Source of the DNA: Ignavibacteria bacterium
Lineage (GTDB): Bacteria > Bacteroidota > Ignavibacteria > Ignavibacteriales > SURF-24
DNA: 47,167 bases
Direction of reading: 5' to 3'
Assembly: GCA_025612375.1 (NCBI GenBank)
Contig: JAAXKN010000034.1
Coordinates: forward strand, 1 to 47,167
In this document: positions 8,769-19,693 of the stretch, in pieces
How the letters are laid out: each line of letters starts with the position of its first letter
Numbering within the stretch: the first letter of the stretch is position 1
Program-made: the position numbers and the translations under genes
The notes under the pieces: model-generated
Seen by the model: only the letters and a program-made list of their open reading frames with translations
Database searches by the model: none
What the model was told of the DNA's origin: nothing

Positions 8769-9509
8769 TTAATATCTGTCCAGTTTGAACTTTTCTCCCA
8801 AATAAAGCTTTCTTACGTCGGCATCCTCAGCCAGGACTTCTGCCGTTCCGTATTTGAAAATGTTGCCGCTAATAAGGATGTAAGCTTTATCCACAATGCT
8901 CAGTGTCTCGTGAACGTTATGGTCTGTAATCAGTATACCTATACCCCGGTTTTTAAGGTTGGCAACAATATTCATGATGTCTTCAACTGCAATAGGATCA
9001 ACTCCCGCAAAAGGCTCATCCAAAAGGATAAATTTTGGATTTGTTGCAAGGGCTCGTGCAATTTCAGTTCTTCTTCTTTCCCCTCCGCTGAGCTGAAAGC
9101 CAAGGCTCTTACGGATATGAGTGATATTTAAGTCCTCAAGAAGCTGATTGCAGCGTTCTTTTCTTTCCTTAGAGGACAAGTCCATCACCTGGAGCACTGC
9201 CATCAGGTTTTCCTCGACGCTGAGGCGGCGGAATATTGAAGCTTCCTGGGGCAGGTACCCTATTCCAAGCCTCGCCCTTTTATACATCGGCATTTGTGTT
9301 ATATTCTCAGAATCCAGAAACACCTTGCCGCTTTCGGGCTTTATCATACCAACTATCATGTAAAATGTCGTGGTCTTCCCTGCTCCGTTAGGTCCCAGAA
9401 GGCCGACAATTTCGCCCTGTGTAACCTGAACGGATACTTTTTTCACGACTGTCCGCTTTTTATATATTTTTACCAGGTCTTCGCTTCTTAATGTTAAAGA
9501 ATGTTCCAT
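8769..9509 (-). CDS. lptB: LPS export ABC transporter ATPase LptB
   Basis: A 246-residue ABC ATPase that powers LPS extraction from the inner membrane with LptF, LptG and LptC. Walker A GPNGAGKT is at residues 39-46; the Q-loop lies in [17 protein letters not shown], the signature is LSGGERRR, Walker B is [13 protein letters not shown] and the switch His is in TDHNVHE. The [11 protein letters not shown] segment and the length (about 241 in E. coli) mark LptB among ABC ATPases. I start at the ATG at 9509; longer in-frame versions would run into lptA. It is the last gene of the kdsA-to-lptB cluster, 37 bases after lptA. LptF and LptG genes are not in this window. Confidence 0.93.
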
Positions 9510-9546
9510 TTTAATTTCTTCTTTATTGAATTTTCCGGAGCTGTAA

Positions 9547-10902
9547 TTATAGTGCCTGAAGGAGCGACTTTTTTTCGGGCCTGCCCGTTTTAATGAAAAA
9601 CGCGGGCAAAGTGAAAGAAAGTTCATTATTCTGAACCAGGTTTTCAGGATAATACTCACTTACGGGTGAAGTATATAATTTCACCTCACTTACGGCTTTT
9701 TTATTGAAAAATATTTTTGCCTTCTGCGCGCTCGACTTTGTAAGCCCGTTCGCCTCATCTTTTTCATACATGTAATAAATGCTCAGGACATTACCGTTAA
9801 CGTCTGTATGCTGAATGCCTGTAGAGTCAAAGTAGATTGTCATCTGGTCGCCTGAAATCTGGTCGTATCTGGTATCATAGCCTTCATTATGCGAAAGTAT
9901 AAAACAATTATTATAAACCTCAATTCTCCTCATGCGGTTGTTTTCGGTAAAAATATTCACCGAGTCACCTGAGAGCTGTGTGTCTTCGTACCAGAGAACG
10001 GGCACATTTGTATCCTTTGGGCGCTTATATGTAATTATCTTTTCCGCATTTCTGTAATATATCGAATAATTATTGGCTGACGCAAAACTGCCCCTTAGAA
10101 TTCTTACTGAGTCTGTTGCAACAAAGGTCCTCGAGGTGTCGTTATAGGATTCCATCGTGCGCGAGGAGATAATAAGCGTATCCTTCTTTCCGTCTGCCGT
10201 GGTATCGACCTGCATTAAAAGAGGCTTCTCATTTATCAGCGTGTATTTTTTCAGCGCGTAGTTCTCAAGATGGTTTCCGTAGACAACAACATTATTCCTG
10301 GAGTTTGATACCTGGACGTTCCCGTCCGCAAAGGTTGTCCTTGTCGCCCTCAGGTGTGTCATGCTGTCAGCTTCGATCGTATTAGTGGAGTCATTTATCG
10401 TAACGCTGCCGGTTGCAACGGCACGGTTTTCATTTTTATAATAGTTCAGGACGCTGCACGTCATTGTGGAAACCGTGTCATAAAGCTTTACTTTATCGGA
10501 AAAATAAGCTCTTTGCTCATTAAAGTAATAGTTTCCGTTTACCGCAGTCAGAATAACTTTTCCGTCATTTAATTTTACTCCGGTTTTGCATTCAGCTATT
10601 CTGTCGTTGCCGTAATAATATCCTCTTTGGGCTTCAATTGTAAGCGTATCCTGCCTGACTACAACATTGCCTTCCAGTATGGCATTATTCCTTGCCAGGT
10701 ACTGTGTGGCTTTCTGGCATGTAATTACTATGTTCCCCTGCCTGAGTACAACGTGGCCTATTACCTCTCTGATGCTCTCCCCGCCGATGAGTTTGCCTGC
10801 AAGGCTGTCGCCGGTAACAGTAATGAGTCCTCCGGTACGCCCCTGTCCTGAGGCCACAAAAGAACTAAAAAATATGATAAATGCTGCAATTACTGTTTTC
10901 AC
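9547..10902 (-). CDS. lptA: LptA/OstA-like periplasmic LPS-transport protein
   Basis: A 451-residue exported protein with a clear signal peptide (about 1-19). The mature part shows repeated OstA-type beta strands, for example [56 protein letters not shown] and [20 protein letters not shown]. LptA proteins build the periplasmic bridge that carries LPS from the LptBFGC complex to LptD. It is longer than E. coli LptA (about 185 residues), as is common in Bacteroidota OstA-like proteins. Its start overlaps the end of lptC by four bases (ATGA), which shows translational coupling, and lptB follows. Confidence 0.82.
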
Positions 10903-11495
10903 GGCATAGCTCCGGCGCCTTCAGGAGTTGTGACAAATGTAGGCTTATAGATGACATAGTTGCTCAGGTTCTGGTCAGCAACCACACCGTAGCCCTGTAT
11001 TTTTTCAGTTGGAGAAGTAATTGTAACGAACTTATCCGAGACAATTTTCCTGTCCTTGCTTCTCCACATGAGCTCCTGCGTCTTCAAAACTGTTCCGATG
11101 TCGTTTTTAGCCACAACGCTGTCGATGGCATACATGTTATTTGTAATGCCGTCAACTTTGCCTTTAAGAGAGGTTAATGTGGATGCTTTCTGTCCGTTCT
11201 CGCTGTAGAAGTCAATTCTCACAGTGTCTAAAAGTGTTTCTTTCCTGCTATCAAAAACCTTTGCGTGTGAAGAAGTCAGAATTGCCTTCAGGTGGCCTTC
11301 GTCCGTAAACATCATTTTGAAATTCCAGCTCTCCTGCGATGGTATTTCACCCTCCTTTGTTCCGGCAAGAACGGGAGGCTTGATCTTATCCTCAGAACAG
11401 CCCACAAATGAAATGGCAGAAGCCATAAACAAAAATGCAATTCCCACAATTAAGTGATAATTGCATTTAACATTCTTTTTCCGCAGAATTTTCAT
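10899..11495 (-). CDS. lptC: LptC-related LPS export lipoprotein
   Basis: A 198-residue protein with an N-terminal hydrophobic segment ending in a possible lipobox (ISFVGC, Cys near residue 33), then an LptC-type beta fold (WNFKMMFTDEGHLKAILTS, ATSLKGKV-like turns and KIVSDKFVTITSPTEKIQG). The segment KIVSDKFV...GYGVVAD resembles LptC C-terminal strands that pass LPS to LptA. E. coli LptC keeps a membrane anchor; here it may be lipid-anchored. It overlaps kdsD and lptA by four bases on each side, so it is tightly coupled within the operon. The family call rests on weak local similarity plus very strong context. Confidence 0.78.
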   Translation of the reverse strand: MKILRKKNVKCNYHLIVGIAFLFMASAISFVGCSEDKIKPPVLAGTKEGEIPSQESWNFKMMFTDEGHLKAILTSSHAKVFDSRKETLLDTVRIDFYSENGQKASTLTSLKGKVDGITNNMYAIDSVVAKNDIGTVLKTQELMWRSKDRKIVSDKFVTITSPTEKIQGYGVVADQNLSNYVIYKPTFVTTPEGAGAMP

Positions 11496-12469
11496 CTTGC
11501 CTGAAGGCCCAGTTTTACAAGGTCGTGGAGATGTACTATTCCCATTGGACGGCTTGCCTCATCTATTACGATGAGTGAGGTTATCTTAAAGTTTTCCATG
11601 TACTGCAGGGCAAAGGATGCCAGATAATCCTCTTTTATAGTTTTAGGGTTCCTGGTCATAATATCTTCAGCCTTTAGTGAATTGAAACTAATTGTTTTCT
11701 CCAGGAGTCTTCTTAAGTCGCCGTCAGTAATGATCCCAGAGAGAACGCCGTTTTCATCAACAACTGTAGTCATTCCAAGGCGCTTTGAGGTAATTTCAAG
11801 TATTGTATCCTTCAGTGATGCCATACAGTTTACGACCGGAATATCCTCTCCTTTTATCATCAGCTCCGAGATCCTGAGAGAGAGTCTTTTACCTAGGCTT
11901 CCTCCCGGATGCAGGAGTGCAAAATCCTCTTTCGTAAAGCCCCTTAATTCCAGCAGTGCCATCGAAAGTGCATCCCCCATTACGAGTGTTGCCGTGCTGG
12001 ATGCCGTTGGAGCCAGGTCATACGGGCAGGCTTCTTCCTTAACGCCAACGTCGAGCACAAATTTGCATTCCCTGGCCACCCTGGAATTCTTATTTCCAAC
12101 CATGGCTATCATTACCACATTCAGCCTTTTTAAGAGCGGAATGAGATTTATAATTTCTTCTGTGTTGCCGCTTTTGGATATCAGGATTACAACGTCTTCC
12201 TGTCTAACCATACCAAGATCCCCATGCAGGGCATCCGTCGGATGCAGATATATGGCTGGCGTGCCGGTAGAATTCATCGTAGCCACTATCTTGCGGGCAA
12301 TAAGCCCCGACTTTCCCATCCCCGTAAGGATAACTCGTCCTTTGGATTTATAAATAATTTCAACCGCACGGGCGAAATCACCGTCAATTCTTTCCATTAA
12401 ACCTGCAACAGCTTCAGCTTCCTTGCAGACTACTTCTTTTGCTTTCTGTATAATTGTTTCGATAGACAA
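11492..12469 (-). CDS. kdsD: Arabinose-5-phosphate isomerase (KpsF/GutQ/KdsD family)
   Basis: A 325-residue enzyme with an N-terminal SIS sugar-isomerase domain (about 30-180) and two CBS domains (about 205-325). Motifs include ILTGMGKSGLIARKIVATM, HPTDALHGDLGMV and SKSGNTEE for the SIS domain, and LSGIITDGDLRRLL and MGIVHLHDLVKLG for the CBS pair. It converts ribulose-5-phosphate to arabinose-5-phosphate, the first step of Kdo synthesis. CBS domains may bind a nucleotide, as in the family. It lies between the unrecognised gene (one base gap) and lptC (four-base overlap). Confidence 0.94.
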   Translation of the reverse strand: MSIETIIQKAKEVVCKEAEAVAGLMERIDGDFARAVEIIYKSKGRVILTGMGKSGLIARKIVATMNSTGTPAIYLHPTDALHGDLGMVRQEDVVILISKSGNTEEIINLIPLLKRLNVVMIAMVGNKNSRVARECKFVLDVGVKEEACPYDLAPTASSTATLVMGDALSMALLELRGFTKEDFALLHPGGSLGKRLSLRISELMIKGEDIPVVNCMASLKDTILEITSKRLGMTTVVDENGVLSGIITDGDLRRLLEKTISFNSLKAEDIMTRNPKTIKEDYLASFALQYMENFKITSLIVIDEASRPMGIVHLHDLVKLGLQAR

Positions 12470-12470
12470 T

Positions 12471-13238
12471 CTAACCTCTTTTAAATATTTTAAATAAGGA
12501 CTTTTCCTTATCTTTTTTTTCTGTACTTACAAATATAGAATAATCCAGACTGATTTTCTTCCAATACTTATTGTAAATGAGAAAAGCCGAGCCAAGGTCC
12601 TGGTCTGAAAGTTCAAACGATGGATCAAAGACCAGCTTTGAATTCAGTGCCAGCCTGGGATCACGTATATGTTTAACCCTGATAACCTCATTAAAAAAGT
12701 TCGTTACCGGGATCAGGTGGTTAATTCCAGTCCCAGCTTCATAAACCCAGATTCTCTTATGCTCACTGGCAATTGCCAGGACCACACTGCCCGGAACAAG
12801 ATGCACTTCCCTCACCTTTGAATTGTCTCCCGGGGCATTCTGGCCCGGCCTCCAGGAAGAATAGCTCCACCTTTTTATTTCACTTAGCTGCGGGGGCAGA
12901 ATCTTTCCGCCGGTTCTTGAAATATCAAACTCTATCTGTCCTTCAAACTCTTCATGAATTACAACGTAAACCTCAGTTTCTTTATAGATGAGGCTTCCTA
13001 TGGCAAAGACCGGAACGGGAGGCATTGTTTCATCAACAGACTCTTCCTTTTTACCCAGCACAAAATCAGTATCGCCGAAACGCCCGCGCCCTATAACAAA
13101 CAAGTCTTCAATTTTCTCACGGTAGATATTATATCCCAGGCGGTCTGAAGGCAGGACAGAAAAAAGCCACTCTTTCTCCCTTGAAGAAAGTCTTCTTGGA
13201 AAGCTCTCGCCATTACCGGGTAAATCATTTGGATTCAT
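12471..13238 (-). CDS. Unrecognised protein in the Kdo/Lpt operon
   Basis: A 255-residue soluble protein I do not recognise. It has no signal peptide and no membrane segment. The middle looks rich in beta strands (PVFAIGSLIYKETEVYVVI, EFEGQIEFDISR, VREVHLVPGSVVLAIAS, KRIWVYEAGTG) and the C-terminus is lysine-rich. Its start lies inside kdsC (14-base overlap) and it ends one base before kdsD, so its translation is coupled to the Kdo enzymes on both sides. Codon use looks like its neighbours. A role in Kdo/LPS synthesis or its control is a guess from position only. The ATG at 13238 is the natural start because the upstream overlap provides GGCAA-type spacing but no better site. Confidence 0.8.
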   Translation of the reverse strand: MNPNDLPGNGESFPRRLSSREKEWLFSVLPSDRLGYNIYREKIEDLFVIGRGRFGDTDFVLGKKEESVDETMPPVPVFAIGSLIYKETEVYVVIHEEFEGQIEFDISRTGGKILPPQLSEIKRWSYSSWRPGQNAPGDNSKVREVHLVPGSVVLAIASEHKRIWVYEAGTGINHLIPVTNFFNEVIRVKHIRDPRLALNSKLVFDPSFELSDQDLGSAFLIYNKYWKKISLDYSIFVSTEKKDKEKSLFKIFKRG

Positions 13239-13719
13239 TTGCCTGTTGTTCTCTTGCCTTAGATATCAAATCCAAAACATCCGAAAGTACCGTCTTTTCT
13301 TCAGAATCCTTTGTAACGTAACTGACAATTCTTTTTACTTCACGCCTTGCGCTGTGCGGCGCGGCGCTGAAGCCCGTTTTCATCAAAAGGGGGATGTCCA
13401 GTATGTCATCACCGACAAAGCCGATGTTATCATAGCCGAGATTATACTTCTTTAACAGTATTTCAGCCTGTGAGACTTTATCTATTGAGTGCGAAAACAC
13501 TTCCTTAAGGCCAAGCTCCTTAACCCTTTGAATGAGGCCTAAGTCTTCAGTAGCCGAAATAATTCCGCACATAAGGCCTAAGTTTTCAGCCTTCAGGAGA
13601 TCCTTCTTCAAATCCGAGAGGGCCTTCTCCGTCCCGGTTGTGTCTTCCGGCGGAAGGACAACGCCATGAAGGTCAAAAAGCAGGAATTTTAATTTACTCA
13701 GCAGGTTATAAAGAACCAT
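13225..13719 (-). CDS. kdsC: KdsC-like HAD protein with altered motif I
   Basis: A 164-residue HAD-superfamily protein with the C-cap-less KdsC layout. Motif I is FDLHGVV: nucleophile Asp16 is present but the second Asp, the usual general acid, is His18. Ser55 (motif II), Lys81 (motif III) and GDDILDIP at 103-110 (motif IV) are present. It also lacks the DGxGI block that follows motif I in typical KdsC and the late GGxG. KdsC hydrolyses Kdo-8-phosphate to Kdo. Placement between kdsA (14-base overlap) and the unknown gene (14-base overlap) supports the role, but its activity is uncertain because of the motif I change. E. coli KdsC is longer (188). Confidence 0.75.
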   Translation of the reverse strand: MVLYNLLSKLKFLLFDLHGVVLPPEDTTGTEKALSDLKKDLLKAENLGLMCGIISATEDLGLIQRVKELGLKEVFSHSIDKVSQAEILLKKYNLGYDNIGFVGDDILDIPLLMKTGFSAAPHSARREVKRIVSYVTKDSEEKTVLSDVLDLISKAREQQANESK

Positions 13720-14527
13720 TGGACTTCACAGCTTCATCAAGTTTTTGAATTCCCGAGAGTAAATCCCTGAGCTTTGAAAGAGGGAACTGACTTGCTGCGT
13801 CACTGAGGGCATGAGCGGGATCAGGATGAACTTCCATAAAAAGGGCGTCAATGCCAACGGCTACGGCCGCCCTGGCAATCGGCGGAATAAACTTAGGCTG
13901 TCCGCCTGAAATTCCCCCCTGTGAAGGAATCTGTACTGCATGAGTAGCATCCATTACAACGGGGTAGCCAAGCTCTCTCATTATAACCAGTGACCGCATG
14001 TCAACAACAAGATTGTGATAGCCGAAGGTTGTTCCCCTTTCAGTAAGCATTACATTTTTATTTCCTGTTGAAGCCACCTTTTCTGCCGCATGCTTCATAT
14101 CTTCAGGAGCCAGAAACTGCCCTTTTTTAATGTTGACTGCCCTGCCGGTTTTCCCGGCTGCAATCAGGAGGTCCGTCTGCCGGCAGAGGAATGCCGGTAT
14201 CTGGAGAACGTCCGCAACACATGAAATTCTCTCAGCCTCGCTTTCGGTATGAATATCTGTCAGGATGGGCACGCTTAGAGAGTCTTTCGCCTTCTGAAGT
14301 ATCTTAAGTGCCATGTCCTCATTAAGGCCGGTAAAAGAATCCAGGCTTGTTCTGTTGGCTTTCCTGTAGCTGGACTTGAATATGAAAGGGATTCCCAGCT
14401 CCGAGGTAATCTTCTTAATCTCTTCGGCGGTCTTAAGTGTTATTTCCTCGCCTTCAATAACGCAGGGGCCTGCAATTAAAACAAGGGGATTGCCGCCGCC
14501 GATCCTGATATTTGATATTTCTACCAT
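13706..14527 (-). CDS. kdsA: 3-deoxy-8-phosphooctulonate (Kdo-8-P) synthase, metal-dependent type
   Basis: A 273-residue TIM-barrel synthase that condenses PEP and arabinose-5-phosphate to Kdo-8-phosphate. Family motifs: LIAGPCVIEGEE, FKSSYRKANRTS, TDIHTESEAE, CRQTDLLIAA, NIKKGQFLAPEDM, LTERGTTFGY and MDATHAVQ. Cys22 in AGPC occupies the position of the metal-binding Cys of the Aquifex-type enzyme, where E. coli has Asn. A His (DATH), Glu (MEVH) and Asp (ALSDA) complete the metal set, so this is probably a class II, metal-requiring enzyme. It is the first gene of the Kdo/Lpt cluster and overlaps kdsC by 14 bases. GGGA five bases before the ATG supports the start. Confidence 0.95.
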   Translation of the reverse strand: MVEISNIRIGGGNPLVLIAGPCVIEGEEITLKTAEEIKKITSELGIPFIFKSSYRKANRTSLDSFTGLNEDMALKILQKAKDSLSVPILTDIHTESEAERISCVADVLQIPAFLCRQTDLLIAAGKTGRAVNIKKGQFLAPEDMKHAAEKVASTGNKNVMLTERGTTFGYHNLVVDMRSLVIMRELGYPVVMDATHAVQIPSQGGISGGQPKFIPPIARAAVAVGIDALFMEVHPDPAHALSDAASQFPLSKLRDLLSGIQKLDEAVKSNGSL

Positions 14528-18931: not shown

Positions 18932-19693
18932 TTAGTGATTAATTCTGAACATTTTACTGTAATATCTTCTTGCCAGTTCAAGGTCCTCTGGCGTGTCAAC
19001 CGAGAGGCTTTCAAGTTCGGTTACGACAATCTTGATCTTAAAGCCGTTTTCCAGCATTCTGAGCTGCTCAAGTTTTTCAATCCTTTCCAGATCCGTGGGC
19101 GGCAGGCTCGTAAATTTAAGAAGGGCTTCCCTTCTGTAAACGTAAAGCCCAATGTGCTTATAGATGTCGGCCACCCTGAGACTTTCAAGATGGCTCCTGG
19201 CATCCCTTACAAAGGGGATCGGCGAACGCGAGAAGTAAAGAGCAAAGTTGTGGTAATCGAAGACCACTTTCGGTATCGAAGGGTTTTCAAGCTCCTCAAC
19301 TGTTGTAATCTTTTTCGCCAGGGTAGAGACATTTACGCTGCTGTCGAAGAACAGGGGTTCAATTGCCTCATCTATCATTCTTCCCTGAATAAAAGGCTCA
19401 TCCCCCTGAATATTGACTATAATATCTGCATGCGGCATGTTCTGTGCAACATATGCAATCCTGTCAGAGCCGGTTGCAATGTCCTTTGGAGTTACTATTA
19501 CCCTTGCTCCAAAGTCCCTTGCCACCTGGGCAACTTTTTCGTCATCTGTTGCAATTATCACCTCATGCAGCATTTTTGATTTCTGGCTGCTTTCATATGT
19601 GTGCTGTATCATCGGTTTGCCTCCGATATCGGCAAGAGGCTTGCCCATAAGCCTGGTCGAGGCGAACCGGGCCGGAATTATTCCTAGATTCAT
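18932..19693 (-). CDS. kdsB: CMP-Kdo synthetase (3-deoxy-manno-octulosonate cytidylyltransferase)
   Basis: A 253-residue nucleotidyltransferase that activates Kdo with CTP before transfer to lipid A. Motifs are IPARFASTRLMGKPLADIGG (nucleotide loop), IVNIQGDEPFI (metal-binding Asp), and SRSPIPFVRD with GLYVYRREALL further on. Length fits E. coli KdsB (248). It is not in the kdsA-lptB cluster but only about 4 kb from it on the same strand, in a group with gatC and the PLP deaminase. The gap from gatC is 21 bases. Confidence 0.95.
   Translation of the reverse strand: MNLGIIPARFASTRLMGKPLADIGGKPMIQHTYESSQKSKMLHEVIIATDDEKVAQVARDFGARVIVTPKDIATGSDRIAYVAQNMPHADIIVNIQGDEPFIQGRMIDEAIEPLFFDSSVNVSTLAKKITTVEELENPSIPKVVFDYHNFALYFSRSPIPFVRDARSHLESLRVADIYKHIGLYVYRREALLKFTSLPPTDLERIEKLEQLRMLENGFKIKIVVTELESLSVDTPEDLELARRYYSKMFRINH

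Follow-up and report, generated by a model that had tools for sequence, protein, structure and literature searches.

A protein family fixed upstream of kdsD in the Kdo-supply and lipopolysaccharide-export operon of Ignavibacteria, with a tentative accessory role

Gene content of the locus

The stretch of DNA analysed here (the window, 47,167 nucleotides of an Ignavibacteria bacterium) carries on its minus strand an operon in the order kdsA, kdsC-like gene, X, kdsD, lptC, lptA-like gene and lptB, where X stands for the gene under study; kdsB is found on the same strand further upstream (18977..19681, the range of its profile match). The kdsA gene (13706..14527), coding for Kdo-8-phosphate synthase, matches TIGR01362 with 379 bits (cut-off 314), and kdsD (11492..12469, TTG start), coding for arabinose-5-phosphate isomerase, matches the KdsD/KpsF profile TIGR00393 with 339 bits (cut-off 204). 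On the export side, lptC (10899..11495) matches TIGR04409 with 86 bits (cut-off 38), the lptA-like gene (9547..10902; OstA_2/LptD_N) matches the OstA_2 profile, and lptB (8769..9659) matches TIGR04406 with 375 bits (cut-off 240); since the lptB profile begins at residue 57 of the open reading frame (ORF), the true start of this gene is probably downstream of the annotated one. The original prediction held all the neighbours of X to be assignable Kdo or LPS-transport genes, and this is borne out by the profiles for kdsA, kdsD, lptC, the lptA-like gene and lptB, but not for the window's "kdsC" (13225..13719), a short HAD gene with DxH replacing DxD, which is itself atypical, its 74.6 bits against TIGR01670 lying below the KdsC cut-off of 106.95.

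The product of this kdsC-like gene is degenerate, reading DLHG for DxDG and matching the KdsC profile only from its position 42. Among the 22 kdsC-like genes of the order, the window's included, the site of the second Asp of DxDG is occupied by D in 8, E in 9, H in 3, G in 1 and Q in 1, and the operon kdsC genes listed for the class retain DxDG. A second KdsC-type phosphatase with an intact DIDG motif is encoded elsewhere in the window's genome (L078:4965-5528, G000:C3); it scores 146 bits, above the KdsC subfamily cut-off, and 179.4 against a cut-off of 180 for KDN-9-phosphate phosphatase. Because of this intact second phosphatase, either KdsC-type gene could perform the Kdo-8-phosphatase step.

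The X gene itself (12471..13238, minus strand) starts with ATG and encodes a 255-residue protein of an undescribed family. Its start overlaps the kdsC-like ORF by 14 bases (13225-13238) and its stop is separated from the kdsD ORF by the single base 12470, exactly as originally read. The view that it belongs to no known family was upheld as well: X gave no match up to E 5 in Pfam and NCBIfam, whereas its neighbours match their own profiles, and none of the Kdo enzyme profiles (KdsA, KdsB, KdsC, KdsD) was matched. A sequence search of the PDB returned nothing below E 0.1, the best matches, at E 0.24 and 0.12, not being believed, and 64 aligned X sequences gave isolated weak matches only in Pfam, NCBIfam, PHROGs and PADLOC. 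Core LPS genes have been reported in Ignavibacteria (PMC5007114). The X gene is undescribed in the titles and abstracts listed by searches of the open-licence PMC literature. The order and content of the genes around X are those of the kdsA-kdsC-kdsD-lptC-lptA-lptB operon, found also in many genomes lacking X; unlike these genes, X is an added, optional component, and none of the scanned families contains a counterpart. X is a new, real and operon-fixed family, a component new to the libraries searched within an operon of a known kind.

Occurrence and position of X across genomes

X is present in 28 of the 59 near genomes, including the window's own and one (G001) with a C-terminal piece only, in 53 of 197 genomes of the window's class and, in a larger draw, in 109 of 391 class genomes, where the remnants in G001 (L047) and G640 (L193) are counted. 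In a phylum-wide draw of 395 genomes, which includes the window's class, the share from outside it not being stated, 26 genomes carry X and every match falls inside the class. The contig scans for X in genomes at large used short peptide patterns taken from the window protein or its close relatives; X-bearing named records (n=14) bear the names Ignavibacteriales, Ignavibacteria, Melioribacteraceae, Melioribacter roseus (a MAG), Stygiobacter and Bacteroidetes bacterium. The record of Stygiobacter electus strain 09-Me is one that carries X. Of the 197 class genomes, 182 have a kdsD gene (E<=1e-40), namely 51 of the 53 with X and 131 of the 144 without.

In nearly all loci X occupies one slot, after kdsA (with or without kdsC) and before kdsD. 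The kdsD gene follows it immediately and in the same orientation in 63 of 65 loci, the exceptions being one locus cut by a contig end (L112) and one described below (L107), and in 40 of 43 later loci, a count that includes L159, where kdsD is split over ORFs, and L173, where X is. The three later exceptions are L157 and L158, with no kdsD at that place, and L193, with an X remnant only; three of the 43 later genomes (G559, G587, G597) match records already in the earlier set and are not new. The gap between X and kdsD, counted to the longest kdsD ORF, has a median of 1 base, stays within 50 bases in 60 of 63 loci and reaches at most 219 (L029). The predicted linkage of X to the Kdo/LPS operon is thus a conserved neighbourhood within the class, and in the class loci checked the homologues did not lie mostly outside LPS operons. 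The pair persists where no lptC comes next (L103, L119, L081) and where kdsA is missing upstream, as in six loci of family f18 (L082, L083, L089, L092, L093, L095). Nineteen class loci lacking X have kdsA upstream in 15 cases, kdsC in 10 and lptC directly after kdsD in 17; as this arrangement of kdsA, kdsC, kdsD and lptC recurs there, such loci represent the same operon minus X.

Three genomes separate X from kdsD. In G118 (L107) X precedes lptC, and kdsA, kdsD and a weakly kdsC-like gene, all of a distant type, are on another contig (L135); the Kdo cassette of this genome has apparently been replaced while X remains before lptC. In G575 and G661 (L157, L158, L202, L203) lptC follows X immediately, the kdsD usually found between the two being absent, and a distant kdsD (45% and 44% identity) is carried elsewhere, flanked by genes that resemble, by eye, peptide-synthetase and polysaccharide-export genes. 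Because G118, G575 and G661 retain X without a local kdsD, a strict need of X for a neighbouring KdsD is excluded.

Several single loci depart from the common pattern in other ways. In G588 (L159), a genome related to G575 and G661, the local kdsD falls in two separate frames, and in G529 (L173) an in-frame stop, due to decay or sequencing error, splits X into two ORFs. Long open frames in G621, G535, G661, G575 and G588 were considered as X-kdsD fusions and rejected, the X ORFs being of 244 residues with no kdsD part. Two genomes of the order, G053 (L057) and G019, are without a recognisable orthologous kdsD: in the former the kdsC-like gene adjoins lptC and the locus has no kdsA or kdsD match, and the latter lacks any close kdsA (36% identity at best), yet kdsB and waaA matches are present.

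The checks suggested at first were whether X always sits beside kdsC and whether it accompanies atypical KdsC proteins, and neither link was supported. The fixed neighbour is kdsD; a kdsC-type gene is found in the operon of 35 of 64 X-bearing rows versus 19 of 49 rows lacking X, and in 14 independent pairs, few of them informative, the two genes changed the same way in 2.0, the other way in 0.5 and showed no difference in 11.5. A clear tie of X presence to kdsC is not supported, the raw lean not being borne out by these few pairs. Where X adjoins a kdsC in class loci beyond the window's order, that kdsC has the normal DxDG motif, and a tie to atypical KdsC is likewise not supported, again with few informative pairs. 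A replacement of a missing kdsB or waaA by X was rejected: kdsB is found in all 59 near genomes (58 above the cut-off) and waaA in 58, whether X is present or absent, the sole near genome without a waaA match (G003, 88% complete) being one that bears X. As both genes are present irrespective of X, the pathway can be completed without it. A link to the type of KdsA was also discarded, all 98 scored KdsA proteins reading GPC at the motif whose Cys, we take it, marks the metal type, with no variation.

Selection and descent

For the 12 of 13 X pairs that gave an estimate, dN/dS ranges from about 0.03 to 0.18, the values being rough and synonymous sites near saturation in most. Within the order, homologues of 31-50% identity occupy the same place, and with the low dN/dS this puts X far beyond chance; X is shown to be a selected gene. 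It is less conserved than kdsD, X identity being the lower of the two in 11 of 13 pairs. The correlation of distances is 0.61 for X and kdsD, 0.62 for X and lptC, and 0.81 for kdsD and lptC; since the X-kdsD value is no higher than that with lptC and lies below that between kdsD and lptC, there is no specific signal of X-KdsD co-evolution.

In the X tree, seven of the eight class families with at least two rows form starred clades (f7, f10, f12, f13, f14, f18 and f20; f5 does not). The 27 rows of the window's order are split in the quick tree, which places f13 within the group and L046 apart from it, two changes being required by starred branches; a tree holding the order as one clade had a higher likelihood and was not rejected (p-AU 0.868). 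Families within the order are mixed. The tree appears broadly to follow the deep lineages, which is compatible with descent and not decisive; purely vertical descent is not proven. When the presence of X is placed on the best kdsD tree (113 rows), 33 changes are counted, 14 of them forced by starred branches, and the label is hardly more clustered than when shuffled (mean 36.9 changes, 52 of 500 shuffles being as low). Gene remnants are found in L047 (G001), supported by tblastn, and L193 (G640), supported by a profile, and a tail-like stretch was seen by eye only in L048. Inheritance of X from the class ancestor followed by many losses is well supported, and we infer frequent loss of an old gene as the simplest account of the pattern. 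Because its tree broadly follows deep lineages and yet its presence has changed at least 14 times, X looks both ancient and dispensable.

It is very improbable that X is a hitchhiker, a decaying or mobile ORF that plays no part in Kdo supply: its patchy distribution, roughly as scattered as that of shuffled labels, and the remnants would suit this, but X has low dN/dS, a tree broadly tracking deep lineages and the same slot in nearly all loci, and the window protein found no match in plasmid and phage collections by tblastn; none of the viral contigs searched held X, and a mobile or selfish origin is disfavoured by the fixed position and the empty plasmid and phage searches.

Predicted structure of X

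The alignment used here holds 64 X rows, the loci at contig ends (L110, L112, L120) and the G001 piece being omitted and an inner start codon chosen for L092, L097 and L109. The predicted model of X is confident (pLDDT 89.5, pTM 0.83) and has a beta-rich core between helical ends, and the core (residues 45-178; 12705..13106, minus strand) predicted alone reaches a pLDDT of 92.8. Foldseek comparison with the PDB, of the whole protein and of the core, gave nothing at E<=0.001; the best PDB match of X (E 3.7e-3, TM 0.15) was not accepted as its fold, nor was the one row from a viral structure library (E 6e-4, TM 0.17, rmsd 14.8) believed. The VIA Z score is at most 3.1 for whole X. Residues 127-178 can be laid on single blades of WD40/kelch propellers, with Z up to 5.0 and an rmsd of 2.7 over 46 residues, but X shows mainly one blade-sized stretch and such Z values may be common for meanders, so that this modelled likeness seems too weak to be called a relationship.

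Six columns are invariant across the 64 rows: the start Met, L29, P30, Y36, P136 and F204; these look structural, with no catalytic-looking set among them. Conservation is also high, at 59-62 of 64 rows, for R15, E21, R143 and D212 (56-62 when E144 is added), and the first four could, judged from conservation, bind a phosphate-bearing ligand.

Within the core, a hairpin (residues 129-165; 12744..12854, minus strand) is reminiscent of a zinc ribbon. Of the 64 rows, 18 have Cys, Cys, Cys and Asp (14 rows) or His (4 rows) at positions 135, 138, 157 and 160, and every row with C138, 18 in all, also has C135 and C157. Like the TFIIB-type zinc ribbon (PF13453), these rows show a CPxC, another Cys further on and a D/H with a conserved W after it, but X rows score below the cut-off: weak PF13453 matches were obtained for three of 64 rows, all of family f10, the best reaching 19.1 bits against a cut-off of 22. 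The window protein lacks the four metal ligands, reading A135, D138, A157 and H160 (A/D/A/H in 14 of the 27 rows of the order, window included), and gave no match to PF13453. The hairpin may be a zinc ribbon from which the metal has been lost in several lineages.

The C-terminal tail (residues 234-255; 12474..12539, minus strand), a helix predicted with low confidence (pLDDT 56-71), is basic and hydrophobic. The last 22 residues have a mean charge of +4 and the remainder averages -5; a charge of +3 or more is found in 50 of 64 X tails versus 96 of 1235 internal X windows, and in the comparison tails of KdsD, KdsA and kdsC-like proteins in 3 of 93, 8 of 95 and 9 of 45, respectively. The hydrophobic moment is slightly above that of shuffles (mean z 0.60, 24 of 64 above 1). 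A fixed tail pattern was tried and fitted 30 of 64 rows only, and the charge result alone was retained. From the charge and the hydrophobic residues, contact of the tail with the membrane may be guessed.

Possible functions of X

Taken as a whole, and with slightly less than even confidence, we favour X as a dedicated, dispensable and non-catalytic accessory protein of the Kdo-supply and LPS-export operon of the class. It would be a binding protein rather than a step enzyme, tuning or organising the supply of Kdo-8-phosphate, and would most likely touch KdsD or another enzyme translated from the same message. The similar distance correlations with kdsD and lptC, and the three genomes that retain X in the absence of a local kdsD, speak against a partnership specific to KdsD. 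A role in binding, tuning or organising is preferred over catalysis because the invariant residues look structural and X is less identical than kdsD. More speculatively, the beta-rich core might be the binding part, its zinc ribbon being metal-free in the window's lineage, and the basic, hydrophobic tail might rest on the inner membrane, where WaaA uses Kdo. The stronger version of this proposal, in which X is a membrane-tethered, non-catalytic organiser or regulator and adds to the four known enzymes a control of Kdo flux encoded in the operon itself, ancient in the class and discarded time and again, is rather unlikely as it stands.

X could instead be an enzyme that modifies arabinose-5-phosphate, Kdo-8-phosphate, Kdo or CMP-Kdo, giving rise to a variant core sugar in some lineages. 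The fixed place amid pathway enzymes, an optional presence of the sort that suits a decoration step, and the conservation of R15, E21, R143, E144 and D212 are in keeping with such an activity, which is nonetheless unlikely given the structural look of the fully identical columns, the lack of a PDB match at the Foldseek threshold, an identity lower than that of kdsD in most pairs and the standard pathway genes that remain beside X.

A place on the export side, with X serving the LptC/LptA/LptB transporter as an adaptor in the cytoplasm or at the membrane surface, seems improbable. It draws on G118, G575 and G661, where lptC follows X with no kdsD between, and on a distance correlation with lptC that equals that with kdsD; against this, X-kdsD pairs exist with no adjoining lptC, and kdsD is the direct neighbour in 63 of 65 loci. 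That X, derived from a zinc ribbon and equipped with a basic tail, regulates the operon by binding its message or promoter is quite improbable: the cysteine set with D or H160 and the weak matches to a transcription-factor zinc ribbon point that way, but those matches are below the cut-off and confined to family f10, the window protein has no Cys at the ligand positions, and family scans gave no helix-turn-helix or RNA-binding match.

To our knowledge, Kdo supply is usually described as the work of four enzymes with no dedicated partner. The accessory protein favoured here could be approached through natural pairs with and without X, such as G000 and G001 of the same genus. A gene fixed beside kdsD across much of the class, yet often lost, suggests that the Kdo supply of these bacteria is controlled or organised at an additional level.
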